A stretch of DNA of 33,261 nt from Thermoguttaceae bacterium (GTDB lineage Bacteria; Planctomycetota; Planctomycetia; Pirellulales; Thermoguttaceae), in contig JAGBDD010000170.1 in the NCBI GenBank assembly GCA_017937685.1, positions 1 through 33,261 on the forward strand. Direction: 5' to 3'. The number at the start of each line of letters is the position of its first letter. Position 1 is the stretch's first letter. The position numbers and the translations under genes were made by a program. Under the pieces are notes generated by a model that was not told the origin of the DNA, made no database searches, and saw nothing but the letters and a program-made list of their open reading frames with translations. Below, in pieces: positions 1 through 16,543 of this stretch.

Positions 1-221
1 GAAAATGGATTGTTTCGCAACCGGCGGAAACGCGCCCGTCGACCGCCGGAAAGCCGCCGAGCGTCCCGGTAAACGCGTTTGCGTATTAGTAATTTCTTTG
101 AATTTGAGCCGTTTCAGCTCTTTCAGACGTAATCGAGACGCAAACGCGTTTACCGGGACGCTCGGCGGCTTTCCGGCGGTCGACGGGCGCGTTTCCGCCG
201 GTTGCGAAACAATCCATTTTC
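1..221. repeat. Perfect 84-bp inverted repeat with 53-bp spacer
   Basis: Bases 1-84 are the exact reverse complement of 138-221, with no mismatch in the arms; the spacer is 85-137. The left arm begins at the first base of the window, so the repeat may extend further left. No transposase or IS end was recognised in it. It lies directly upstream of the gene at 291. Perfect arms of this length mean a recent insertion (MITE-like or other foldback element), a structured leader, or a foldback assembly artefact if this is a contig end. Confidence 0.9.
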
Positions 222-260
222 CATCTCGATTAAACCGTTTCGCGACTCCGGTTTTTCCGT

Positions 261-281
261 TACAATGCGAGCGTTAGGAGG
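261..281 (+). promoter_or_regulatory. Possible -10 box and Shine-Dalgarno of the 291 gene
   Basis: TACAAT at 261-266 resembles a -10 box, but no convincing -35 lies 16-18 bp upstream. A strong purine-rich Shine-Dalgarno (AGGAGG-like, about 276-282) precedes the ATG at 291 with normal spacing, and this decides the start. A near copy of the same TACAATGCGA string occurs at 1444-1453. Confidence 0.4.
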
Positions 282-290
282 AGCCGCAAA

Positions 291-1007
291 ATGAAAACCG
301 CTTGCAATTATCAAAACTTCAACCGAGGTCGGCTCGTCGCCGCGTGGATTTGGAACGTCGTCTCGGCGCGACCCGACGGCTTGGAACGCGGACGCAAAAC
401 GAGCGTCAACCCGGCGGCGCTCTACCGTCGCGCTTCCGACTTGGGGCTCGACTCCGGTTTTATCAACCGAACCGCGCGTTGGAACTTTCCCGACCTCGAC
501 CTCCGCGACAACGTCTGGAAGATTCCACGCCAACCTGAGTTTCATCTTTACGAAAAGGAGGCGGACGGCGAACTCGGGCGCGATTTCAACGATTGGGCGT
601 ATTTTCTGTTCGCCAAAGAAGGACGCGTTCCCGTTTCGGTTTTCAAAGATTACGCGAAGCAAATCGGCGTCGACTTCCGAACGCTTCGGCAAGCGGCGCG
701 AGCGTTGCGCCTCGACACGATCCAAGGCGACGACGGCAAGTATTACTGGGTAAGACGGGACAAGTTCGCGTTCTCGGACGTCGTCGAAATCGTCGCCGGA
801 AAGCTGTACGAAAGATACTTTGAAAACAACCCGAACAAATTTTTGTTCACGCCGCCAAAAATCGTTAGAATCGAGGAGCTGCCGGACGTCCCGTCGACGC
901 GGTTGATTGTCGACGCGGCGCTGAACCGCTTGCTCGCCGAAGGCTTGGCGAAGACGCATATCTTTTTCGACGCGAACGCCAACGAAGACCGCGAAGGATT
1001 TTATTAA
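291..1007 (+). CDS. Hypothetical protein with a winged-helix-like C-terminal half
   Basis: This 238-residue protein has a good Shine-Dalgarno and I do not recognise it as a named family. Residues about 105-150 (starting at GRVPVSVFKDYAKQIG, then RTLRQAARAL and a GKYYWV strand) read like the small winged-helix module found at the C-terminus of some plasmid or phage primase/RepA-type proteins, which suggests DNA binding. The N-terminal third (RGRLVAAWIWNVV, then PDLDLRDNVW) has no recognisable motif, and there is no signal peptide or membrane segment. It starts 70 bp after the perfect inverted repeat and ends 1 nt before the ORF at 1009. It is probably an element-borne regulator or replication accessory, but that is inference. 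Confidence 0.6.
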   Translation: MKTACNYQNFNRGRLVAAWIWNVVSARPDGLERGRKTSVNPAALYRRASDLGLDSGFINRTARWNFPDLDLRDNVWKIPRQPEFHLYEKEADGELGRDFNDWAYFLFAKEGRVPVSVFKDYAKQIGVDFRTLRQAARALRLDTIQGDDGKYYWVRRDKFAFSDVVEIVAGKLYERYFENNPNKFLFTPPKIVRIEELPDVPSTRLIVDAALNRLLAEGLAKTHIFFDANANEDREGFY

Positions 1008-1008
1008 A

Positions 1009-1251
1009 ATGAAAAAACAAGAAACGCCCGCTCAACCGCAAGTCGTTCCCACCGCCGTCGCCGACGTCTTAACGCGTCCGCTCAAAACCGCCGCGCACTC
1101 GAAAGCAAACGGGTTCGGAGCGACGCTTTTCTCCGCGTTCGCTCGGAACCGGCTCCCCGCGCAACCGAAAGCGGACGGGCGCGAAGCGGCGCTTTTCCCG
1201 ACGATGAAACGCGCTTGCCTTTGCCGCGTCGCCCCATCGCCGCCCAATTAA
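1009..1251 (+). CDS. Small hypothetical protein, possibly truncated
   Basis: This 80-residue ORF starts 1 nt after the previous stop, which suggests translational coupling. The first 25 residues (MKKQETPAQPQVVPTAVADV and on) look like a normal soluble N-terminus. From about residue 30 the composition becomes Ala/Arg-rich, and the DNA contains two imperfect copies of a ~32-bp unit (about 1100-1132 and 1168-1200). That pattern suggests a gene truncated and fused to intergenic repeat DNA. No domain was recognised. Existence as a real protein is uncertain. Confidence 0.35.
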   Translation: MKKQETPAQPQVVPTAVADVLTRPLKTAAHSKANGFGATLFSAFARNRLPAQPKADGREAALFPTMKRACLCRVAPSPPN

Positions 1252-1777
1252 CCCGGTTTCACGCTCGATTAAATCTTGCGCATTCCCGAACGACGGCGCG
1301 GCAAAGCGACTGAAAAGCCGGAGCTTTTCGGGCGACGGCTAGAAACGAGCGATAAACGCCTTTACCCCAACGCCTCGACGTTCTACGCGCCCAACGCAAT
1401 CTTCTTTCCGCTCCGATCCCCCCTTGCGTTCCAACCTCTCGTTTACAATGCGAACGCGAGGGACGCCGCCGTTCTTTAAACTCCGCTTATGTTTTCGAAT
1501 TACTAGCCTAACGATGTTTAATTTTAACGCTGTAATTTGAGGAGGACGAGGTGAGACGTTGCGATAAAGGTTCTACCTGGCGTCAACCTTACAAGATCGT
1601 TGAAATATTTTGTTTATATAAAAATGTCGTCGAAACACGACGACGAAGCAATACGACTTAAAAAATTTTTGTCGTTTTAAGGTTAATGAATCACGTAATT
1701 TTAAAACAATTGCGCAATGTTTATACAGCAGGTAAGTATAAAGGCGGCGCGTTATGATAAACTGTTAAAAGCCGTAG
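1252..1777. other. 526-bp intergenic region, AT-rich in its second half
   Basis: The first part (to about 1480) has the base composition of the neighbours and a TACAAT at 1444-1449. From 1490 it becomes distinctly AT-rich. It contains one small ORF with a strong Shine-Dalgarno (1551-1661) and an A/T-rich imperfect hairpin (1653-1675). No larger gene is supported. Confidence 0.6.
1551..1661 (+). CDS. Possible 36-residue small ORF (GTG start)
   Basis: A GTG codon at 1551 is preceded by a strong GAGGAGG Shine-Dalgarno (about 1539-1546) and opens a 36-codon frame ending in TAA at 1659-1661. The predicted peptide starts VRRCDKGSTWRQPYKIVEIF; it is basic and has no obvious membrane segment. The only support is the ribosome-binding site in an otherwise AT-rich gap beside the Gabija genes. 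It could be a leader peptide, a small toxin or chance. Confidence 0.3.
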   Translation: MRRCDKGSTWRQPYKIVEIFCLYKNVVETRRRSNTT

Positions 1778-3568
1778 TTAAAAATCGCTCGATTCTTTTT
1801 CGCTCGGTATTATTTTCTTCAAGAAACTTGACGGGGCGCGTAGTTTTCCGTTGAGAATGCGCGAATAAAGGAAAACGCACGTTTTCCGCGCTCGACTTAT
1901 CGAAACGAAACATACGCGACATTCGGCGGCAAGATCCTCCGGCGTTTTAGCGTGAAAATCGGGCAAAGAGCCCTCCTCCATATTGAGCATAATCACCGCG
2001 TCAAATTCAAGGCCTTTCGAGCTGTGGCGCGTCGTTACGACTAGGCGATCGCCGACGTCGCCCAAATTCAAGATCGACGAAAGCGGAGCGACGGAATACT
2101 CCTCGCGAATATTGTTTTCGAGCTTTTGGAGGTTTTCTCGTTCGCTTTCGTCGAAAATCTCGAAGAGCGAAAATGCCTTCTCCATATATTCGAACCAATT
2201 TAAAAGCGATTCCTTGTATCTCGCGCTTTCAATGAGACGGCGGTAAATCGACTTGCGAAGAGGCAAAAGTTCAACCTCGGAAATCGCGCCGCGTTGAGAA
2301 CAACGGAGAAACGCCGTCCAAGTCGCGCAAATTTCGTCAAACGACGCTTGAAATTTATCCAACGTCCATTGAGCGCACGATTGAAGCCAAAAGAAGAGTT
2401 CGGTACGCCGAAATTTCGGGCGCGCCAGGTAAACGGAAATCCCTCGTTGGGCGCATCGTCGACGCAGATTTCGAGCGTCTTCCTGGTATTTCGTTAAGAC
2501 GGCGATTTTTCCGAGCGAAACGCCTTCGTTGCGGAAGCGTTCGACGAAATCTAGCGCCGCGTCGTACTGCGTTTCCATACCTCCGGCGCATTCGAGAGTT
2601 ATGAATTCTGCTTCGAGTTCTTTGGCGGCGCCGACGGCTGCGTATCGCGAACGCTGCGTCGCGTTTGTGGACGATAAAACGCGCTCGCTCGCGTCGATAA
2701 TCGCTTGCGGACTACGGTAATTCTTAGTTAAGCGGAAAGTTTCGACGCCGGGAAGTCGAGCGAGTTCGTTTAAGTACTCCGGCGACGCGCCTTGGAAACC
2801 GTAAATCGATTGATCCGGGTCGCCGACAGCAAAAATCTTTACGTTGGTTCGCGTAAGAAGCGTTAATATAATTTCGTGCGAAACGAGTCCAAAATCTTGG
2901 TATTCGTCAACAAGGATCCAAGGGAACTTTGCTTCGACCGCGCGGCGAACGTATTCCTCCTCGCGAAGTAAAACCGCCGAGTATTTTAAGAGATGAAGGA
3001 AGTCGAGATAAGAACGATTATGTAAAAACTTTGCAAACTCCACCGTCGCTTCGTGAAGCAACAAATTCTTGGAAACCTTTAAATCTACGCAACTTATACG
3101 GTTTTTAAAGAGATTAACGCGTTCAGCGTCAACGCTCTTGCGATTAAAACAAGCGAAACGTTGATTTTCCCGGATAAAATCATTAAAAAGACAATCAAGT
3201 TTCTTTTCGGAAATAACGTCTAACGCTTGCGGAACCCCATACTTCGGATACAACGGAGCGAACGGCGCGAGTATTTCCGCCCAGCAAAAGGAGTGAAACG
3301 TGCCTAAGAAAATATTCTTACGTTTCTTGCAGCCTAAGTCGCGTAGACGATTCTTAAATTCGCGCGCCGCTTCAACGTTGTACGTCAAACACGCCAACCC
3401 TCGACGCGGATTGGACGTTTCGCTCAAAATTTGCGCGACTTTCGACGTTAAAACGCGCGTTTTGCCACTGCCGGGACCCGCGAGCACGACGGCGGAACCT
3501 TGCGCGGCCAACGCGCGACGTTGGTCTTCGTCGAGCGAAATGGAAACGATGGAGCGACGTTCGGTCAA
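1778..3568 (-). CDS. gajB: Gabija GajB-like UvrD/Rep-family helicase
   Basis: This 596-residue superfamily 1A DNA helicase has all its motifs: Q-motif-like SLDEDQRRAL, Walker A GPGSGKT (31-37), TYNVEAAREF (Ia), GTFHSF, Walker B VDEYQDF, GDPDQSIYGFQGA (III), NYRSPQAI (IV), TRHSSKGLEFD (V) and SISRAR (VI). It is therefore probably an active ATPase. In Gabija, GajB works with the GajA nuclease against phage DNA, and an OLD-TOPRIM gene followed by a UvrD-like gene is the defining arrangement. The start is a TTG overlapping the upstream gajA stop (TTGA, 3565-3568), which points to coupled translation; a GAGG Shine-Dalgarno lies just upstream. At 596 residues it is somewhat longer than the ~500 usual for GajB. 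Without gajA it could pass for a generic UvrD helicase. Confidence 0.87.
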   Translation of the reverse strand: MTERRSIVSISLDEDQRRALAAQGSAVVLAGPGSGKTRVLTSKVAQILSETSNPRRGLACLTYNVEAAREFKNRLRDLGCKKRKNIFLGTFHSFCWAEILAPFAPLYPKYGVPQALDVISEKKLDCLFNDFIRENQRFACFNRKSVDAERVNLFKNRISCVDLKVSKNLLLHEATVEFAKFLHNRSYLDFLHLLKYSAVLLREEEYVRRAVEAKFPWILVDEYQDFGLVSHEIILTLLTRTNVKIFAVGDPDQSIYGFQGASPEYLNELARLPGVETFRLTKNYRSPQAIIDASERVLSSTNATQRSRYAAVGAAKELEAEFITLECAGGMETQYDAALDFVERFRNEGVSLGKIAVLTKYQEDARNLRRRCAQRGISVYLARPKFRRTELFFWLQSCAQWTLDKFQASFDEICATWTAFLRCSQRGAISEVELLPLRKSIYRRLIESARYKESLLNWFEYMEKAFSLFEIFDESERENLQKLENNIREEYSVAPLSSILNLGDVGDRLVVTTRHSSKGLEFDAVIMLNMEEGSLPDFHAKTPEDLAAECRVCFVSISRARKTCVFLYSRILNGKLRAPSSFLKKIIPSEKESSDF

Positions 3569-5505
3569 CGTTGAACCTCGACTTTCGTTTTAGCGACTTT
3601 AGCTTTAATTTGCAGGAGCGCTTGCCGGATATATTCGGGCGGCGTTAATTGGCGCGCATAGGTCGCTAAGCGTTGCGCAAACCGCCCTTTGCCAATTTCT
3701 TTAATTTTGGAAAGACAAGCCTTATATTGTCCCGAGGTTAATTCGGTAGCGAAATGTTCTTTCTGTTTCTCGCCGCCTTCGGTTAGTTCGTTGAAAACTT
3801 GAATGATCGTTTGGCGTTTTTGTTCCGCTACGTTTGCTGCGAAAATATCGGTTTCTAGCGTTGTTTCGCCAACGAAGAAGTCGTATTGGGCTAACAACGC
3901 GCGTTGTTTGCTGGTTGAAATTGAAAACGTATAAGCTTCCCATTCTTCGTCTTGAAAAGAGGACTCGCATAACTTGAACGCGCGAATAAGACCGAGAAAC
4001 GCTTGCGGAAAACCCGGATCGGGATTGCCGTCGGTAATCGCGACGCAAGGAAGGCCCAACGCTTGCGCAAAACGCCAATAAGGCTTGAAATTCGTCGACG
4101 CGATATTGCAAACGACGACGCCGAATCGATCGAGTTCGAAACCAAGGCCTTCGGCAAAACGCGGAAGCAGGTACTCCTCCGCGTAACCTTCGACAAAAAC
4201 AACGCCTTTGGCCATATAGATTTCCCCTCGGTTGACGTCGATATAACGCGCAAGATCGTCAAGTTCCCGAGGTTCAAGGTTTAAATCCGCCGTCGTTTTC
4301 ACGTCGGTTCCGCTCGACGTCTCAAGCAAGCGAACGATCGACTTAACGTCCGCGACGGCCGATATATGCGTCGAATGCGTCGTCGTAATTACCGGCGCCT
4401 TGCAGTCTTTGATGAAGTGTTTGTAAAGCAAACGTTGATAAATCGGATGCAAATGCGCTTCCGGCTCCTCGACCGCGAGAATCGTAACGCCGTTCGAGCC
4501 GAATATTTCCGACATAACGCGATATAGATCGGGATAACCGTCGCTCATTTCATCCCCTTGCAATTCGTAATCGTTTGCCGCCGTTTTTCGATAAAATCGC
4601 GTCGCCAACTCTTGGTTTTTCCGGGCGAGACGTTCGTATTTGTCGACGTCCAAAAAGGGGGGAACCGTCGAATCTTGGAGTTGCAATAGAACGAGCGCGA
4701 CGTAAAGAACGTTGTCGACGCCCAAACTTGCGTCGTAAGTTTCGCGTCCGTCGATCAACGGGCGCAACGCGTAAAGAAGTTTGCTCGCGTCGGCGTTCGT
4801 CGTTCTTAGCGACACGTCGAAACCGTTGCGATCGGAGGCGAGAATCACGTTGATTCGCTCCTTTAAACAGTTTTCTAGACTTTGAATTTGAGCGACTTGC
4901 AATACGCTTCGCCCGGTCGAATCCAATCTTTGCGCAATATCTGTTAGGGCTTCTTTACTTGGCGCGTATTTTTGTTTAAGAACTTGCGTTAACGGCGACG
5001 TTCGCGGCGAGCGCATTTCGGCCTCGACGTCGCGGATTGCTTTAATGACTTTGATATTAAGAACTTTGCGATCTTCGTAAGTAAAAGGGCGCGTTTCGTC
5101 GTCGCCTTTAAAGACGATAAAGCGGTAATCGCCGTTTTCGTCGGGATAAAAGCGATAGGTCAATTTTAGCGTTTCTTGACCGGAGTCGAGTATAACCGTC
5201 GCGTCGACCAACTGCGCCAAGAGGTCGAGATTATCCTCGTAATCGCTCAAATAAATCGAGATTTCAATTTCTTCGCCGTTTTCCATCGGCGCGTCGAGCC
5301 CGGCCCAAAAGTCGGATTCTTCGAGCGTCCGGTTTTTTTCGGAGAGCGTCGGGTCAAGGATTAACTACAACGCGCGCAATAAATTGCTCTTGCCGACGCC
5401 GTTTTCGCCGATAACGACTTGCCGCTTGTTTAAGCGAAAATCGACGGAACGAAAGTTGCGAAAGTTTTTAATTTGCACGCGACAAATATACGGTTGCGTT
5501 TTCAT
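3565..5505 (-). pseudogene. gajA: Gabija GajA-like OLD-family ATPase/TOPRIM nuclease, interrupted by an in-frame TAG
   Basis: The complete frame runs from ATG at 5505 and would encode 646 residues, but codon 47 is TAG (5365-5367). The first 46 codons carry the AAA/ABC N-terminal strand IKNFRNFRSVDF and Walker A GENGVGKS (33-40), and end at NLLRAL. Downstream, in the same frame, lie the ABC-like signature around LGVDN, Walker B AVEEPEAHLHP, H-loop TTTHSTHIS, and TOPRIM motifs FVEGYAEEYLLP and AITDG. A restart at ATG 5286 would give 573 residues without Walker A, so probably no ATPase. One base change (CAG to TAG) explains the lesion, and the rest of the gene shows no decay. It may be a recent inactivation, a readthrough site or a sequencing error. 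In Gabija, GajA is the ATP-regulated DNA-nicking subunit, followed directly by gajB as here. Confidence 0.85.
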
Positions 5506-6961: not shown

Positions 6962-9646
6962 TTACCGTTGTTCGAACTTTGCCGCCAAACCGGCGAGCGT
7001 CATATTGGGAAGCGTTTGATCGTGCGGTATTAGCAGATATTTCCAAGGTTTATCGTCGTTTTCGCTTGCAAGCCGAGCCCATTTGACGGCGGCGTCGCGC
7101 TTGGCCGTTACTTCTTTAGCGTCGAGTTCGGAAGCGCGTTTTGTTTCGCAAAGGTATTTCGCATCGGCGGTTTCGACGATAAAGTCCGGCAAGTAACGCG
7201 ACTCTTGAGCGTAAAAAATGCGAATTTCGCGCAACGTCGGTTTTAGCCATTTCAGGACGGCGGGGTCGTCCTCCAAAATGCGAGCGAATTCAAGTTCGGT
7301 TTGGGAGTCGAACTTTTGAACGTCGTAAATACATTTGCGAAAGCCGCCGAAAGCCGTCGACTTGATTCGGCTCGTTTCGCCTTTTCCTAAGGGCGCTCGA
7401 AAATTCCTTGGACGTTCGTTCGCGGCGACGGTCGAATTCTGCGGTTCAAATTTCGTAAAGCCGCCCGTTACCGTAACTTCGTATTCCGTTTTCGGTTCAT
7501 AACGCCGCTCCGACATTTGCGCGTGAATAAATTCGATCAACGTTTTACGGTGAAACTGCAACACGTTGAGAACTTCCGCTTCGTCGGCTAAGTATTCTCG
7601 CAATCGCGCGACGGCTTGGCCGGCGAGTTTTTGCAAGAGATCGGCGCAGTCGTCGTAACACACGTCGTTATAATCGATTAACCCCGCGACTAAATAATCT
7701 TCGAAACGCGTTTCGGGCGACGCGGCGTTTTTGTCGCTCAACTTGCGCGATTCCTGATCGCCGCGCAAATATTTGATTAAAATATCTTGCGCGACCGGCT
7801 GCAAATTGATTGGGGCGACGTCGAGGTCAAAATCCTCGAACGCGTAACTCGCGCCGTCTTTAGGCGTTACGACGATGCGCGGAATATCGATCGCGTTTTC
7901 CCGAATCGTTTCAAGCGTCTTTTTCACCGTCGTTTCTATTTCTGCGTCGCTCAACGATTCTCCAAGAAGCGCCGTTTGCTTTTTGACGTCGGCGACAATT
8001 TGCGGGAGAATTTTCGGCGACGTTAAATCGCGGCTCGTTTTGACTTGCCGCGCGTAAGTTGTCGCGCCGATAAGAGCGTAAGTTTGGCGAGCGACGGCGA
8101 CTTCGGCGGGCGTTTCGAACAACAAACGCGGCGGTTCGGCGGCGATTTCCGACGCGTCGGTCCGCGTCTCGGACGGCGCAAGTCCCAACAGCGTCTCAAT
8201 TTTCGGCGCGGCGACAAGAACCTTACGTTCCTCGTCCGGAATGTCGCGACCAATAACGACGCCGCGTCGAATAACCGAGTTCGGGTCGTTGGCGTAATCG
8301 ACGATTTCCTTAAAACGGTCGTGCGAAACGATGGTCAGTCGGTCGACCGCGTCGACGCCGGTTCGCCGTCCGTAAGGCAAGCGCAAACCGCGCCCGATCG
8401 ATTGTTCGACGAGCGTTTTTGAGTTCGCGGCGCGGAGCGGAACGATCGTGTAAAGGTTCGAAACGTCCCAACCTTCCTTCAACATATTGACGTGAATCAC
8501 GATTTCGGTCGGTTCGGCGGGATTCTCGACCTGCAAAAGCCGCGCGACGACTTCCTCGCGTTCGCTTCCTTTCAAATTCGAGTGAACTTGAATCGTTTTG
8601 CCGCGATAACGTCCGTTGAAAAAGTCGTCCGATTCGATTTTCGCCTGCAGCTCGTTCGCGTGTTCGACGTCGGCGGCGACGACCAGCATAAACGGCTTGA
8701 CGCGTCGCTCGTTTCGCTCGAGAGCGTAAGTTTGGAGATCGATTTTAACGTTTTCGTGAACGCGGACGCCGTCCTCCAACTTGATTTTTTCCAACTCTTG
8801 CGGCGAATAAGCGCTCGGATCGAAGTTTTCGCGCGTCGCGACGGCGGGCTCCTTCACGAACCCGTCTTCGATAGCGGTCGCCAACGGGTATTCGTAAACG
8901 ACGTTTTTAAACGGAATCGACTTCGAACCTTTTTCAACTTGCGGCGTCGCGGTCAGTTCGAGACCAAGGAGCGGACGGAGTTCTTCGATCGCTTGGACGC
9001 CCGCCGACGCGCGGTAGTGGTGCGACTCGTCCATCAACACGACCAAGTCGTCCAACTTGGCGAGATATTCGCTATAACTTTCCCCGATATATTCGCTCAA
9101 CCGTTTGAAACGCGGGACTTTCGTTTGCGAATCCTTGTCGCCGTTGATTTTCGAGATATTGAAAACGTTGATAAAGCAAGCGTCGTTAAAAAGCCGTTCC
9201 TTGGCGCCGCGACCGTCGTCGTAGTTGTCGCCGGTAACGAGGACGGGATTCTCCGCGCCGAACTCGCCGATTCCGCGAAAAACGTACTTCGGCGTTCCCG
9301 GCGTGAAGTCGGCGCTCAACTTTTCGTAAACCGTTAAGTTCGGCGCGATAACGAAGAAATGGCGGCTGATTCCGGCTTGGTAAAGGAACGCGATAAAGGC
9401 GCCCATTAGCCGCGTTTTCCCGACGCCGGTCGCCAACGCGAAACAGAGCGAAGGAAAAGCGCGTTCGAAACTCTCGACCGCCGGAAATTCGCGCCGGAGG
9501 GTTTCGAGGTTTTGCGCGACGTCGGCATCTTTCGACAAGTTAAGCGTTTCGCAAACTCGCTTGAGAATTTCCAACGCTTCCCGTTGCGGCGAGCGGAGAC
9601 TCAACCGGGCGCTAATCGTTTTAATAAGTCGCTCGAAATCGTTCAT
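6962..9646 (-). CDS. res: Type III restriction enzyme, Res subunit (helicase/endonuclease)
   Basis: This 894-residue SF2 translocase-endonuclease of type III R-M (EcoP15I Res-like) shows Walker A ATGVGKT (72-78), DESH box (206-209), LTATPQ (231-236), HVNMLKEGWDVSNL and QSIGRGLRLPYG (motif VI, about 415-427). Near the C-terminus a PD-(D/E)xK nuclease is visible: LPDFIVE followed by CETKRA, both strands of the catalytic core. It follows Mod with 1 nt between stop and start, so translation is coupled. Res needs Mod for target recognition and cuts DNA after ATP-driven communication between two sites. Length and motifs are complete, so it is probably functional. Confidence 0.95.
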   Translation of the reverse strand: MNDFERLIKTISARLSLRSPQREALEILKRVCETLNLSKDADVAQNLETLRREFPAVESFERAFPSLCFALATGVGKTRLMGAFIAFLYQAGISRHFFVIAPNLTVYEKLSADFTPGTPKYVFRGIGEFGAENPVLVTGDNYDDGRGAKERLFNDACFINVFNISKINGDKDSQTKVPRFKRLSEYIGESYSEYLAKLDDLVVLMDESHHYRASAGVQAIEELRPLLGLELTATPQVEKGSKSIPFKNVVYEYPLATAIEDGFVKEPAVATRENFDPSAYSPQELEKIKLEDGVRVHENVKIDLQTYALERNERRVKPFMLVVAADVEHANELQAKIESDDFFNGRYRGKTIQVHSNLKGSEREEVVARLLQVENPAEPTEIVIHVNMLKEGWDVSNLYTIVPLRAANSKTLVEQSIGRGLRLPYGRRTGVDAVDRLTIVSHDRFKEIVDYANDPNSVIRRGVVIGRDIPDEERKVLVAAPKIETLLGLAPSETRTDASEIAAEPPRLLFETPAEVAVARQTYALIGATTYARQVKTSRDLTSPKILPQIVADVKKQTALLGESLSDAEIETTVKKTLETIRENAIDIPRIVVTPKDGASYAFEDFDLDVAPINLQPVAQDILIKYLRGDQESRKLSDKNAASPETRFEDYLVAGLIDYNDVCYDDCADLLQKLAGQAVARLREYLADEAEVLNVLQFHRKTLIEFIHAQMSERRYEPKTEYEVTVTGGFTKFEPQNSTVAANERPRNFRAPLGKGETSRIKSTAFGGFRKCIYDVQKFDSQTELEFARILEDDPAVLKWLKPTLREIRIFYAQESRYLPDFIVETADAKYLCETKRASELDAKEVTAKRDAAVKWARLASENDDKPWKYLLIPHDQTLPNMTLAGLAAKFEQR

Positions 9647-9647
9647 C

Positions 9648-11345
9648 TTACGCGTCTCCGTTCTCGTCCGTTCCGTCGACGGCGAACAGCGTCGGTTGGT
9701 TGGCGTTCGTCTTTTTGCGTCCTCTTTTCGCCGTTGTTTTCTTGGGCGGCGCCGGTTCCTCTTGCGCGAGCGGGAGGTTTTCGACGGCCAGCGAGTAATC
9801 GTCGCGTCCCCATTCGCATTTTTTGAGGAGCGTTTGCGGAATCTTTTTGACCGTGAGGTTGTCGAACTCGTCGCCGGTTCCGAGGAACGCGGAACAGTAA
9901 ATCGCGAGGGTGCGGTTCGGCCCGACGTCGTCGGAAATCTTGGCGAGGTAATCGAGCGTCAGACTTTGCGTGGTAACGTAAATGAAGTCGGTTTCGGAAC
10001 TTTGCCCGTGCCGCCAATACTCCTCCGGGTTCTCGCTCGGCGCGTAGGTAAAACCTTCGATTTTGCAAACGGCTTCGGCGAGCGCTTCGGGGTTGAACTT
10101 CTCCTTATCGATGATCGGTCTTCCCCATTTGTCGAGGGCGATCAAGGACGGCCCGAGTTTGAAATATCGGAACCCGCCGCCCCCTTTCCAACCGACCGCT
10201 TTCGTGATTCCGCCTTGGTCGGTTCCGTCGACGACGCTCCGCAAGCGCGGAATGCAGTGCGTGTGGCAATGTTCGCCGAGTTCGATTCCGATCCAGCGCC
10301 GCCCCATTTTGTGCGCGACCGCCGCCGTCGTCCCGCTGCCTAAAAAGGAGTCTAGAACGAGATCGCCGGGTTGGGTCGCCAACGTTAAAATTCGTTCGAT
10401 AAGACGTTCCGGTTTGGGCGTCGCGAAAACGCTCTCGGAATTAAACGCTTTCACTTCGCGTTTTGCGTCTTGGTTGTCGCCGACGTCGGCGCGGAACCAA
10501 ATAGTTTTAGAAACCGTGCCGCCTTTAACTTCGGAAAGAAAGCGTTTGATACGCGGCACGTTATTTCCGTCTTTGCCAAACGTGATACGGTTGTCCGCGA
10601 CCATCTCCTCGAATTTTTCTTTCGAAACGCGCCAACAAGACCCGGCGGGGGGATTGATAATACGACCGCTTGGCGTTTGAATTGGGTAGTCGGCGGACGC
10701 GGAATAGGATTTCACGGAAAGATTATCCGACATCCAAGGTCCGCGCGGATCGTTATCCTTGTTCGTGTAGCGACTATTCATTTCTTCTGTTCTCGGTAAC
10801 AGATTAGGTCGCCAAGCCGTTTTGTTTTTAGCGTAAACTAAAATGAAATCGTGGCTGTCCGAAAGCCAGGTCGCGTCGTTTTGGGGCGCATACTTTTTTT
10901 CCCAAATAACGGTGGCGACAAAATTAGCGCGCCCGAATATTTCGTCGCACATCACTTTCAAATACGCTTGTTCGTCGTCGTCGATAGAAATCCAAATCGA
11001 CCCGTCGTTGGCCAACAAGCGATAAAGCAGTTCGAGGCGTTCTCGCAAAAGCCCGAGCCAAATAGAATGTTCGAGTCCGTCGTTGTACTGCTCGAACGCG
11101 TTGCCGGTGTTATACGGCGGGTCGATGTAAACGCATTTCACCTTGCCGGTAAACTCTTGTTCTAGCGCCTTTAACGCCAAGAGGTTGTCTCCGAAGATCA
11201 GGCGATTGTCGAAAATATCGGCGTCGCTCGTTCGCGTCGGCGCGCAATACGACTTTTCCGCGTCTTCGATAAGAATACGCGGCTCGAGCTTCGGGCGGAC
11301 GTCCTTGCCAATCCAGGTAAGCTCCAATTTTTGTTTCTTCGACAT
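9648..11345 (-). CDS. mod: Type III DNA adenine-N6 methyltransferase, Mod subunit
   Basis: This 565-residue site-specific methyltransferase has the beta-group order: catalytic IDPPYNTGN (DPPY at 75-78) first, AdoMet motif DSFLGSGTTAAV near residue 340. The middle part, between about residue 130 and 300, is where type III Mod proteins carry the target-recognition domain, so the site specificity cannot be read from sequence. The C-terminus is Lys/Pro-rich. Mod both methylates one strand of its asymmetric site and gives Res its specificity. It begins 23 nt after the RloC-like gene and ends 1 nt before res. AAAGG lies about 10 nt before the ATG. Confidence 0.96.
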   Translation of the reverse strand: MSKKQKLELTWIGKDVRPKLEPRILIEDAEKSYCAPTRTSDADIFDNRLIFGDNLLALKALEQEFTGKVKCVYIDPPYNTGNAFEQYNDGLEHSIWLGLLRERLELLYRLLANDGSIWISIDDDEQAYLKVMCDEIFGRANFVATVIWEKKYAPQNDATWLSDSHDFILVYAKNKTAWRPNLLPRTEEMNSRYTNKDNDPRGPWMSDNLSVKSYSASADYPIQTPSGRIINPPAGSCWRVSKEKFEEMVADNRITFGKDGNNVPRIKRFLSEVKGGTVSKTIWFRADVGDNQDAKREVKAFNSESVFATPKPERLIERILTLATQPGDLVLDSFLGSGTTAAVAHKMGRRWIGIELGEHCHTHCIPRLRSVVDGTDQGGITKAVGWKGGGGFRYFKLGPSLIALDKWGRPIIDKEKFNPEALAEAVCKIEGFTYAPSENPEEYWRHGQSSETDFIYVTTQSLTLDYLAKISDDVGPNRTLAIYCSAFLGTGDEFDNLTVKKIPQTLLKKCEWGRDDYSLAVENLPLAQEEPAPPKKTTAKRGRKKTNANQPTLFAVDGTDENGDA

Positions 11346-11368
11346 TGCGGTTTCGCCTTTTATTTAAT

Positions 11369-13675
11369 TTACAACGGTTCTTTCGGTCGATAGCCGACAA
11401 AGTTTAAAACGCGTTTCACCAGACCGCGAAGTTCGCCGGCGTTGACGTTATCGGTAAAATCAATGTGGAAGTGGTGGAATGGGTTTGTATCGTCTCGAAG
11501 AATATCAAGTTCATCGAGTTTTTCAAGTTCATCGAGTTGATCTACGCCAATACGAATTTGCGACGTTCCTGTTTCTTGACGTTTCCGCTCCGTGTTAAGA
11601 AAATGATGTAACGACTCATTTTGCGGAAATTCCGGTTGAAAAGCAACGCGACAATATCCCTCCAAAGTATGACGCAACACGGCGCCGACTAGAATAACGT
11701 CGCCTTCGTTTTTTTCGTAAAAGTTACGTAATATCTCAATATATCGGTCGTAATCGTTCTTCTCCCATTCCTTCTTACTTTCGATTTGCAATATATTTTG
11801 AGAACCAAATCGCGAAAGCCCCAAACAGACAATTTCTTTGTTTTTGAGTTTCCCGCACATTTCTTTCAAAAAACGTTTTGAATGCGACGCGACGATAAGT
11901 TGGCGGCATTGGCTTTGCAGTCGGGCGATATGCTCCGCCGTCGCGCTCCTGCGATGTTCGTCCAAGCTCGTAAACGGGTCGTCGAAAACGACGATCGCGT
12001 TTTCCAAATTCGGATTGTTTTCCAACGACGCGAAAAAATACGCCAACGCCAACGTTCGGCGGTCGCCCGCGCTCAACACGTACTTGAATTCGTTTTCCAA
12101 CTTTTTCGTTTTTACGTTGTTTATCGTCAATTTATACTCGACGCTTAAGCCGGAATACCCGAGTTTATTTTGGCGAAAGTCGGCGACGGTAAAGTCGGCG
12201 CGCAACTTGCCGAGATAACGGTTCGTCGCGTCGAGGTAATCGCGAAAAACGGTCGCCTCGCAACGTTTAAGTTCGGCTTCCTCTTCTTTGATCGACGTTT
12301 GGAGTTCGTCGAGTTCGTTTCGAAGCGTATGTATTTTATAATAGACTTCCTGTACGTTGCGGTCGAGGTAGCGCGTCCGCGTCAATTCCAACGTTTGCTT
12401 TCGTTTCAGCAGTTCCGACTTGCTTACGCGGGCGACGCGCTCTTGAACGCGCCGAATCGTTGCGTTCGCGTCGAGAAAATCTTGATACGCGTTCAAAAAC
12501 GAAGCGCGCGCTTCGGCGTAAAGTTCGAGCGCCGCCGTCAACTCGTCCGGAAGCGCGAGCGGTTCCAGCGGCAAACTTTTTTTGTCTTGCGCGACCGCTT
12601 GGAAACGCTTGCCCAACGCGGCGACCGTTTCGAGAATCGACTTAAAATCGGGCGATTCCGGCAAGTCGGGGACGTATTGTCGCCAGTAATCGCGTTTTGG
12701 CGGCAAACTCGATTTTAAGGTGTTTAATCGACTCCAAACGTCGCGCAACTCGGCAAGCGTCGCGTCAAGGTCGCTTCGTAACTCCGTGACGAAACGCTTA
12801 TACTCGTCGTTAAAATATTGCCGATAAACGGTTAGAAGTCGGTCGTCGCGGATTTTTTGGCCGCAGAACGGACAAACGTCGTCGGACGAAGCGAGCGCAA
12901 GTCCCGTTGCCGCCCAGTTTTCGCCGTCGGCGCCTAACGAAGCGAAGTGAGCGCGCGCCCGGTTTAGCGTTGTTTCTTCGACGTCGCTTAACGACCGCTC
13001 GAGTAACGCCGAAACTTGCGTCGAGTCGAACGCGGGAAGGGAAAACGGCTCGAAAGCCGCCGCGTTTTTAATCGTTTCGGCTTGCTCCGCTTGCTTGATT
13101 TCCGCGTCGACTTCGGCGATTTTCTCGTCGAGGGCTTCTTGCCAAGGCAACGCGTCGAATTGGTCGACCGTCAGCGGCCCGGCGTATTTTTGAAGCTCGG
13201 CGTTTTGCCATTTCGGAAGTTCTCTTTGCAATTCGCCGCGGCGCCGTTTTAAAGCGCCCAGTCGTTGAATACGTTCGACGCTCTCCGCGCCCAAAACGAT
13301 TTGGCAGAGGTTGTCGCGTTGCTCTTTCTCGACGCTAAGGCCCGAATAGACGTTTTCGTCGACGTAAAAATCGTTAAAAACGACGACCGGCGCCGCGAAC
13401 GCCGAACGTTCCCAACGCCCGTTTTGAAAACGCAATTCTTCTTCGTCGATTTCGAGGCAGATTTCTAACGGCGACGGCGTCGGCGTCGCGCTTTTCCGCC
13501 GTCGCGCCAAAATCTCGTCGGAATCGTCGCGAGCGAAGGAGCGCAAAACTTGCGACAACGTCGTTTTTCCCGCCGCGTTTTCGCCGTAAATAAGCGTCGT
13601 TTGCTTTAATTCTTCGTCGCAAGTTAATTGATTAAAGCAACCGACGTTGCGAATAAGTTTAATTTTCGTCAGCAT
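11369..13675 (-). CDS. AAA_13-family zinc-hook ATPase, RloC/PrrC-like
   Basis: This 768-residue SMC/Rad50-like ATPase is of the AAA_13 type that includes the anticodon nucleases PrrC and RloC. It has Walker A GENAAGKT (31-38), a CPFCGQ zinc-hook-like pair (C268, C271) inside long charged helices (about 130-480), signature YVLSAGDRRTLALAYF (532-547), Walker B VVFDDP with D-loop SLDEH (562-574) and H-loop VASHS (595-599). The C-terminal 110 residues hold LRHTLEGY (R668, E672), HH at 690-691 and NPFHHFHIDF. An Arg-x3-Glu followed by distant His resembles the catalytic triad of PrrC-type nucleases, but the spacing differs, so nuclease activity is inference. Such proteins are often linked to R-M systems as a second, abortive line of defence. 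Start is adjacent to the SNF2 stop. Confidence 0.85.
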   Translation of the reverse strand: MLTKIKLIRNVGCFNQLTCDEELKQTTLIYGENAAGKTTLSQVLRSFARDDSDEILARRRKSATPTPSPLEICLEIDEEELRFQNGRWERSAFAAPVVVFNDFYVDENVYSGLSVEKEQRDNLCQIVLGAESVERIQRLGALKRRRGELQRELPKWQNAELQKYAGPLTVDQFDALPWQEALDEKIAEVDAEIKQAEQAETIKNAAAFEPFSLPAFDSTQVSALLERSLSDVEETTLNRARAHFASLGADGENWAATGLALASSDDVCPFCGQKIRDDRLLTVYRQYFNDEYKRFVTELRSDLDATLAELRDVWSRLNTLKSSLPPKRDYWRQYVPDLPESPDFKSILETVAALGKRFQAVAQDKKSLPLEPLALPDELTAALELYAEARASFLNAYQDFLDANATIRRVQERVARVSKSELLKRKQTLELTRTRYLDRNVQEVYYKIHTLRNELDELQTSIKEEEAELKRCEATVFRDYLDATNRYLGKLRADFTVADFRQNKLGYSGLSVEYKLTINNVKTKKLENEFKYVLSAGDRRTLALAYFFASLENNPNLENAIVVFDDPFTSLDEHRRSATAEHIARLQSQCRQLIVASHSKRFLKEMCGKLKNKEIVCLGLSRFGSQNILQIESKKEWEKNDYDRYIEILRNFYEKNEGDVILVGAVLRHTLEGYCRVAFQPEFPQNESLHHFLNTERKRQETGTSQIRIGVDQLDELEKLDELDILRDDTNPFHHFHIDFTDNVNAGELRGLVKRVLNFVGYRPKEPL

Positions 13676-16543
13676 TTAAACAACGCTCCACCGAATCGTA
13701 AAGAGGCGTTTTTCCTCGATTTTTTCTTTCGTTTGCTCTTCGAGTCGCTCGATCAACTCGTCCCGCTTTTGTTCGACGGCGTCTTGCGCGGCGAAGAGAT
13801 CGCGGCGCTTTTGGTTGCGGCGGCGTTCGAGTTCGCGAACCTGCTTTTGAACGGCGATCTTTTCTTGCAAACCGCGCGTCGCCGTCGCTTCGCGGCGTTT
13901 TTCGGCGATCAATTTATCTAACTCTTTTAATTCTTGCTCTAACGAAAGTTTTAAGTCGTCGCTCCAACGGTCGAGTTTGGACGATTCCTCTTCTAAGAAA
14001 CGGAGATTGCGCTCGCCGACTCCCTCGACGCGACGAGCGATTTCGGCTTGGCGGATCTCGCTCAAATCGGCGGGAGGTTCCGCGTCGAGTTGCGCGTCTT
14101 GCGTCGCGGGAAGCCAAAAGAGCTTTTGGCAAATTTCGTCGTCCAACGTTTGACCGTCGTCCGTTCGCGCGGCGAAAATAAGAAATTCGTCTTTTGAGAC
14201 GGAACGAATCGTCAACAACGACGCCTCCAACCAACCGGAGCGTCCGCGAAACGGTTCGATAAGACTTAACTTCGCCCGATAATTCGAAAGCGAGAAAGTC
14301 AACGAGGCGAGCGGCAACTTACGTTCAAGCGCCGAAGCGATGAGTTTTCGCGCCAACGAACAGTCGCTCCGATAGAAGAACTCGTTATTTTCGTCCGCTT
14401 TCTTCCAGTCGAAGTCGTACCAACCGCGAGGCGCGTCGGAGCCAAGATACTCAAAGCGCGGAAGATCGGGATCAAATCGCGCGTCGTCGCCAAGTTCCGC
14501 TTTCGTCAAATTTAAGAGCGTCTTTTCTTGCCGCGAAAGGCAGTCGTTCGTCTTCTCTTGACTGAGTCGCAACCGCAAGCGCACTTCTTCGTCGAAGTTT
14601 TCCATTAACTGTCGACGCGTCGACTTTAAGCGCGCTTGAATTTTGTCGTCGAGTTCCTTTTGGAGTTCGTCGAAAGCCCGTTCGATTTCTTCCGGCGCGC
14701 GACAGTTTTGGTAAACGAAGGCGATGCGCTTTTCAATATCGACGCCCGATTCGAGCGCGCCGAGAATCTCGTCGGAAGCGCCTAAAACGCCGTCGAACAA
14801 GCGGAATTTTTGACTCAATAGTTCGTAAACGCGTCGATCTGCTTCGTTGCGACGATTGATAAAGTTGACGACGACCACGTCGTGTTTTTGACCGTATCGA
14901 TGGCAACGTCCGATTCGTTGTTCGATGCGTTGCGGATTCCAAGGCAAGTCGTAATTAACGATCAAACTGCAAAATTGCAAGTTGACGCCTTCGGCCGCCG
15001 CTTCCGTCGCGACTAAAATAGTCGCCGATTCGCGAAAATAATCGACGAGAGCCGCTTTCATATCGACGGCTTTCGAACCGGCGACGCGATCGTCGTCGGC
15101 GTGTTTTTCGAGCCAGCGTTCGTAAATCTTTTGTTGACCGGGCGCGTCGTTCGAACCGCTAATCGAGACGACTTGACCGTCGTAACCGTTGGCCGAAAGG
15201 AGTTTAACAAGGTAGTTTTGAGTTTGGCGCGATTCGGTGAAGATTACCGCTTTACGCGCCGCTCCAATTTCGTCCGTTTTGTTGAAAGCCGTTTGCAACG
15301 CTTCAATGAGCGCGTCGCCTTTTGCGTTGCGCGCGACGCTTGCCGCAAGTTCGGCGAAACTTTGAAGATCGTTTAATTCTTGTTTAAACGCTTCGGGATC
15401 GTATTGCGCGTTTAATTTCCCGGCGTTCGATTCGTCGTCGGCGCCAAATTCGTCCTCAAACGAATCGAACCCGTCGAGGTCTTCGTCGTCGAAAAGTTGT
15501 AATTCGCGCCCGACGTTCTCTAAACGTTCCGCTAGATTTTTTAACGTTCGCGCGATCGCAAAAGTCGACGACGCAAGCAACTTGCGAAGAACGATCGTGA
15601 TGAGTTGACGTTGACTCGCCGGAAGCGCGTAGAGAGTTTCTCGCTGTAAATATTCGGTGATCTTGTCGTATAACTCTTGTTCCTTTTCCGTGGGGAAGAA
15701 GTCTTGCGTGATCGGCGCGCGCCTAGTAAAAGGAACGTATTCCGCGACTTGCTTTCTCAACGTTCGCGAACAAACGCCGGCAATACGCTCTTTAAGGAGA
15801 ACGTTGCGCCGCGTTTCGTCTTGCGCGTTGGCAAATTGCGCGCGAAACGAATTGAGATCGCCGAAAATATGAGGGTCGACGACGCTAATTAAACTGTAAA
15901 GTTCCAACAACGAGTTTTGCAACGGCGTCGCCGTGAGAAGCAATTTGGGAGCCGCGCTCGTCGCCTCGACAATGCGACGCGCGATCGATTTTTTCGCGGA
16001 CGCCGATTTTTTGCTACGCTCGAAACTTTGATAGAGGTTGCGTAGGCGATGCGCTTCGTCGAAAACGACTAAATCCCAAGGAATTTGGGCAATTTCCGCT
16101 TCCTTGGCGGCGGCGAAATTATACGAACAGACGGCGACTTCGTCGCGCAAATCGAAGGGATTCAACGCGCCGTCTTTTTTTAACCGGTTGAAAACTTTAG
16201 AGTCTAAAATTACGGAAGAGATGAAAAATTTATCGAGCAATTCTTGACGCCATTGATTCCGTAACATAGCGGGCACGACAATTAAAACGCGACGTTTGCG
16301 TTCGGCCCATTTTTGCGTGATTACGAGTCCCGCTTCGATCGTTTTACCGAGTCCGACCTCGTCCGCAAGAATAACGCCGTTGGCGAACGGACTACGCAAC
16401 GAGAAGAGCGCGGCGTCGACTTGGTGCGGATTAAGATCGACGCGAGCGTTCGAAATGGAACGAGACAAAGCCGAGACGTCGCCGCCCGAACCGCGAAGAT
16501 AAAGTTGATACGCCCAAATTTGAGATTGGTAATAAGCGTTCAT
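13676..16543 (-). CDS. SNF2-family helicase/translocase of a defence operon
   Basis: This 955-residue SF2 ATPase of the SNF2/RapA type has Walker A ADEVGLGKT (60-68), DEAH box (162-165), LLTATPLQN, then the C-terminal helicase lobe with VIFTESRQTQ, VATEAAAEGVNLQ and QRIGRCHRYGQ. The N-terminus has the PHQVDAALFSLRSP type of start seen in defence SNF2 proteins such as DISARM DrmD. The last ~100 residues are a highly charged coiled coil. It is first in the operon, directly followed by the zinc-hook ATPase (stop and start abut at 13675/13676). Likely role: ATP-driven translocation or remodelling on DNA in support of the type III R-M pair. The start at ATG 16543 has only a poor Shine-Dalgarno. 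Confidence 0.92.
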   Translation of the reverse strand: MNAYYQSQIWAYQLYLRGSGGDVSALSRSISNARVDLNPHQVDAALFSLRSPFANGVILADEVGLGKTIEAGLVITQKWAERKRRVLIVVPAMLRNQWRQELLDKFFISSVILDSKVFNRLKKDGALNPFDLRDEVAVCSYNFAAAKEAEIAQIPWDLVVFDEAHRLRNLYQSFERSKKSASAKKSIARRIVEATSAAPKLLLTATPLQNSLLELYSLISVVDPHIFGDLNSFRAQFANAQDETRRNVLLKERIAGVCSRTLRKQVAEYVPFTRRAPITQDFFPTEKEQELYDKITEYLQRETLYALPASQRQLITIVLRKLLASSTFAIARTLKNLAERLENVGRELQLFDDEDLDGFDSFEDEFGADDESNAGKLNAQYDPEAFKQELNDLQSFAELAASVARNAKGDALIEALQTAFNKTDEIGAARKAVIFTESRQTQNYLVKLLSANGYDGQVVSISGSNDAPGQQKIYERWLEKHADDDRVAGSKAVDMKAALVDYFRESATILVATEAAAEGVNLQFCSLIVNYDLPWNPQRIEQRIGRCHRYGQKHDVVVVNFINRRNEADRRVYELLSQKFRLFDGVLGASDEILGALESGVDIEKRIAFVYQNCRAPEEIERAFDELQKELDDKIQARLKSTRRQLMENFDEEVRLRLRLSQEKTNDCLSRQEKTLLNLTKAELGDDARFDPDLPRFEYLGSDAPRGWYDFDWKKADENNEFFYRSDCSLARKLIASALERKLPLASLTFSLSNYRAKLSLIEPFRGRSGWLEASLLTIRSVSKDEFLIFAARTDDGQTLDDEICQKLFWLPATQDAQLDAEPPADLSEIRQAEIARRVEGVGERNLRFLEEESSKLDRWSDDLKLSLEQELKELDKLIAEKRREATATRGLQEKIAVQKQVRELERRRNQKRRDLFAAQDAVEQKRDELIERLEEQTKEKIEEKRLFTIRWSVV

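Follow-up and report, generated by a model that had tools for sequence, protein, structure and literature searches.

MITEs and foldback transposons carry long inverted arms around a short centre. The foldback described here, which lies at the edge of a contig from a Thermoguttaceae genome, also has long inverted arms and a short centre, but it differs from such elements in that it is single copy, its loop and right arm are present in relatives, and the contig edge falls inside an arm. Foldback artefacts in long reads are reportedly the subject of a paper from 2026 (PMC12870357).

Two artefacts described from short-read libraries come from different kinds of material. In the part of the work of Star et al. 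(2014, PMC3946424) that we draw on, interrupted palindromes in Illumina libraries are attributed to single-strand hairpins whose 3' ends are extended on the same strand. As at our locus, reverse-complement ends surround an endogenous inner section, and one end is artificial, as is probably the case here; that artefact was described in reads from historic and ancient DNA, whereas ours is at a contig edge in a metagenome-assembled genome and is known from the assembly alone. The portion of Chen et al. (2024, PMC10908179) cited here describes PDSM, in which libraries cut by sonication or by enzymes yield chimeric reads at inverted repeats and palindromes. Like the foldback analysed here, PDSM reads join a sequence to its own reverse complement, and do so where the genome has inverted repeats or palindromes, but they are described as false variants of low frequency from human tumour libraries, and the pairing word at our locus is only 5 bases long. 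Our data indicate that this foldback is very probably the product of one or more chimeric reads at the contig edge and not a real genetic element.

A perfect foldback at the edge of a contig

The window, meaning the whole stretch of DNA that was analysed, is contig C133 (33,261 bases) of genome G000, which comprises 4.08 Mb in 266 contigs. A preliminary description of the sequence had reported arms at 1-84 and 138-221 as exact reverse complements with a 53-base spacer, followed by a Shine-Dalgarno sequence and a gene. Both statements hold. A repeat search of the window and a script recovered arms of 84 nt that are 100% complementary around a loop of 53 nt, in which the inner bases 85 (A) and 137 (G) are unpaired, and AGGAGG at 276-281 precedes a 238-aa open reading frame at 291-1007 that starts 70 bases past the right arm. 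The left arm begins at the contig's first base, so that the contig edge sets the outer limit and the arms are at least 84 bases long. The features discussed below are as follows.

1..84, + strand: left arm, the reverse complement of 138-221, running up to the contig edge; probably an artificial copy; other sequence stands here in L024, L022 and L019
80..84, + strand: TGCGT, left half of a 5-base inverted word and the point of divergence, where the window reads ...TTTGCGT and relatives read ...ATATGCGT
85..137, + strand: 53-base loop, genuine gene-upstream sequence; L024 and L022 carry a collinear, nearly identical loop, and in L019 and L020 it has diverged
138..221, + strand: right arm, genuine chromosomal sequence and presumed template of the foldback, collinear in G017:C74 (L011/L024) and contiguous with the gene
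138..142, + strand: ACGCA, right half of the inverted word and putative annealing site of a folded 3' end, kept in L024 and L022
276..281, + strand: AGGAGG, Shine-Dalgarno sequence read from the sequence and conserved in four aligned relatives
291..1007, + strand: gene for a 238-aa protein, family unassigned, found in a single genus among the genomes searched

We surveyed contig ends and inverted repeats in the same genome. From 141 contigs taken, five that were all N were dropped, leaving 136 contigs with 237 ends examined; 35 of the 136 were covered for their first 20,000 bases only. A terminal foldback with arms of at least 15 bases occurs at one of the 237 ends, that of C133, and no similar foldback was found at any other of these ends of assembled contigs. 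Among perfect inverted repeats that span up to about 700 bases, the next longest has arms of 20 bases (136 of the 266 contigs, 1,648,157 bases). A perfect 84-base foldback is far beyond chance. The RNA fold of positions 1-230 has a z-score of -25.

The gene downstream of the foldback was found in six of 60 genomes (own included), all six belonging to one genus, and a genome can hold as many as three loci. Its protein gave no Pfam match at E values up to 1, one weak PHROGs match (E 0.43), five PDB matches of which none was significant (best E 0.33) and no PADLOC match at E 0.001. One scan of viral contigs turned up no relative, and the AlphaFold model is useless at a mean pLDDT of 43. The gene ends in a 37-base unit (window 969-1005) that relatives repeat in a tandem array of about 6-7 copies, which continues beyond the stop codon (L018:2255-2478 and L021:1206-1462), and a repeat search of window positions 1-3000 found no such array. 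Further along, on the minus strand, adjacent open reading frames at 1778-5286 match the models for GajB (E 6e-162) and GajA (E 3e-154), which belong to the Gabija anti-phage system, and 6962-16543, also on the minus strand, holds defence-type matches to a type III restriction enzyme and methyltransferase, a PDC-S06-type protein and a DrmD-like helicase.

The left arm is foreign to the locus in relatives

The named relatives of the gene are Thermoguttaceae genomes from ruminant gut metagenomes (seven loci, L018-L024, in five genomes), and these loci lie mostly near contig ends. Recognisably the same upstream region is present in L024 and L022 (both G017), L019 (G009) and L020 (G010). In L024 the right arm is present and collinear, with 93% identity over window positions 74-688 (G017:C74), while in L022 the outer right arm is swapped for the version found in L019 and L020. 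To the left of the loop, L024, L022 and L019 all read ...ATATGCGTA with a G run ahead of it; in L024 and L019, C runs and AT-rich sequence come before it as well. The left arm is thus absent beside the loop in all three informative loci, which come from two genomes; the contig carrying L020 begins inside the loop and is uninformative for the left side. Across 40 genomes, own included, the only match of window bases 1-73 to a relative is to the right arm in G017:C74, on its reverse strand, and none of L010, L011 and L013-L017 contains an inverted self-match at E 1e-3. By this comparison the right arm is native, and the left arm is an additional copy in reverse complement that is missing from the reference, which is a relative and not the same strain.

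Window positions 154-224 exist in two upstream versions, one shared by the window and L024 and the other by L022, L019 and L020. Both versions occur within G017, which may reflect recombination between copies.

The comparison bears on whether a mobile foldback or MITE-like element was inserted upstream of the gene, as the preliminary description had suggested. Long perfect inverted arms around a short centre and a position near the defence-gene island would suit such an element. However, a search for further copies of the arm, which the same description had proposed as a check, returned only C133:1-221 and its own opposite strand in an assembly of 88% completeness, and relatives already have the loop and the right-arm side next to the gene, leaving the left arm as the sole extra piece. 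An empty site was looked for in these relatives and not found, as the loop and the right-arm side stand beside the gene there. Taken together, we regard a mobile insertion as extremely improbable.

The contig stops beside a segment missing from the assembly

We next consider what should lie to the left of the loop. A search of the window's own genome with L024:2600-5003 found C122 and C133, and for the roughly 200 bases between their counterparts it found nothing in the G000 assembly. Base 1 of C122 aligns on the reverse strand to position 4579 of L024 (84% over 471 columns), although the tandem repeats of C122 also give other, overlapping alignments to L024, and the C133 loop corresponds to L024 from about position 4795. 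By this synteny C122 is the expected left neighbour of C133, and a segment of about 200 bases separates the ends of the two contigs. In L024 the segment (4580-4790) consists of an AT-rich stretch followed by C and G runs and lies between divergent genes; it was not found in the G000 assembly.

Assemblies of the relatives are also broken at this place. A contig ends in or directly beside the AT-rich, C/G-run segment in four of the five loci of this upstream type (the window, L022, L019 and L020): the contig with L022 starts in the G run, that with L019 in the AT-rich part and that with L020 inside the loop, and only G017:C74 (L024) spans the segment. More broadly, seven of the nine gene loci in six genomes have a contig end at most 600 bases upstream of the gene, a count that includes G019:C580, where the upstream sequence is different, and two G011 contigs that end 10 bases before the gene and are uninformative for the upstream type.

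Divergent from the gene, L024:3430-4446 and positions 1-1400 of C122 (L029) hold an array of 174-base (58-codon) tandem repeats, which reads partly as a repeat protein (a 350-aa open reading frame at L024:3411-4463, minus strand). A second array, of units of about 34 bases, lies further out.

A functional RNA or DNA stem, whether an attenuator, a terminator, an origin or a hairpin telomere, was also weighed, since a regulatory stem had been raised in the preliminary description. The fold is very stable, it sits in the 5' region of a gene, and relatives have AT-rich sequence and C and G runs nearby. However, the structure is not conserved, as the pairing left arm is missing in L024, L022 and L019, and no Rfam family reached its gathering score in the window. 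We consider a functional stem very unlikely. A hairpin telomere has little or no asymmetric loop. This candidate was rejected in view of the 53-base asymmetric loop and of G017:C74, which continues beyond the point in question and has its counterpart in G000 in C122.

A five-base inverted word at the junction

The window departs from its relatives at TGCGT (80-84), and the reverse complement of this word, ACGCA, stands at 138-142. A short inverted word that permits priming from a 3' end is present at the junction; its length of five bases is judged by the left flank of the relatives, which stands in for the strain's own flank, absent from the assembly and presumed to resemble theirs. With uniform bases, the probability that at least five bases are shared at a random junction is about 0.005. 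In L024 the switch word overlaps a 10-base palindrome, CGCATATGCG.

We asked how an assembler would treat such a junction. Words shared between contig ends are exactly 141 bases long in 15 of the 21 cases of at least 20 bases, and the remaining six measure 119, 99, 88, 62, 36 and 24 bases; the assembler apparently used k = 141. The values 141, 119 and 99 are among the default k values of MEGAHIT, whose smallest default is 21. Since the five-base word is shorter than this smallest k, an error in the graph alone is an unlikely source of the foldback and a chimeric molecule would be needed. We modelled two real structures in a toy graph with k set to 99, 119 and 141, although such a graph is not the real assembler. 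A long inverted duplication produced a unitig that ended with arms of k-1 bases on both sides and a loop cut from the gene; at k = 141 the arms thus measure 140 bases and the loop is isolated. A repeat with arms of 84 bases was assembled straight through. Neither outcome is seen in C133, where the arm stops at 84 bases and the loop is still joined to 33 kb. This pattern fits a low-coverage dead end arising from chimeric reads.

The RGIG-named relatives appear to belong to a ruminant gut study in which, in the part of the paper cited here, assembly was by MEGAHIT (with IDBA-UD also used, for the gene catalogue) from 150-base reads of a PCR-free library (PMC8199421). As a numerical remark only, 84 + 53 + 13 = 150. 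If G000 comes from the same study, its library was PCR-free and no library PCR would have amplified a chimera, which counts against an artefact.

Discussion

A chimeric foldback read at the contig end, one of the possibilities offered in the preliminary description, is supported by the position at the contig edge, the different left flank of the relatives, the five-base word and the missing segment between C122 and C133. We propose the following origin. A strand running leftwards from the gene, whether synthesised or trimmed to that point, would have ended at ...TAATACGCA, just before the AT-rich, C/G-run segment. Its 3' end may then have folded back onto TGCGT, which lies 53 bases away in that strand, forming five base pairs; extension of this end with its own strand as template would have yielded perfect arms. 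One chimeric read, or a handful derived from a single such molecule, could then have become the last piece of C133: with the true leftward sequence unassembled, the assembler would have kept the chimera as the only extension available and stopped at its end.

Several points count against an artefact. Assemblers usually want more than one supporting read. The terminal foldback is isolated (one of 237 ends), which indicates no general habit of the library, although similar foldbacks elsewhere are expected only if the library makes them often and are not a strict requirement. In addition, the published short-read cases come from historic and ancient DNA and from human tumour libraries, and they provide a mechanism, not a rate for material such as ours.

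The most likely alternative is a real inverted duplication. It would have arisen in the cell near the AT-rich, C/G-run segment, through template switching or foldback priming, and a drop in coverage would have ended the contig within the second arm. A template switch in the cell could use the same five-base word, polymerases might stall in the neighbouring segment, where contigs do end, and the rarity of terminal foldbacks gives no sign of a sloppy library. However, a long duplication with normal coverage should give 140-base arms and a detached loop at k = 141, arms free of substitutions demand a very recent event, and the duplication is absent from all three informative loci of relatives. 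We therefore hold a real duplication to be unlikely, with a small chance of being correct.

A perfect long inverted repeat that begins at the first base of a contig should be compared with relatives before it is called an element. At this locus the same comparison allows the missing segment to be placed by synteny, with C122 and C133 flanking the same gap of about 200 bases. If the left arm were real, it would represent a fresh case of foldback duplication inside the cell, and it would lie upstream of a gene that has up to three loci per genome in its genus.
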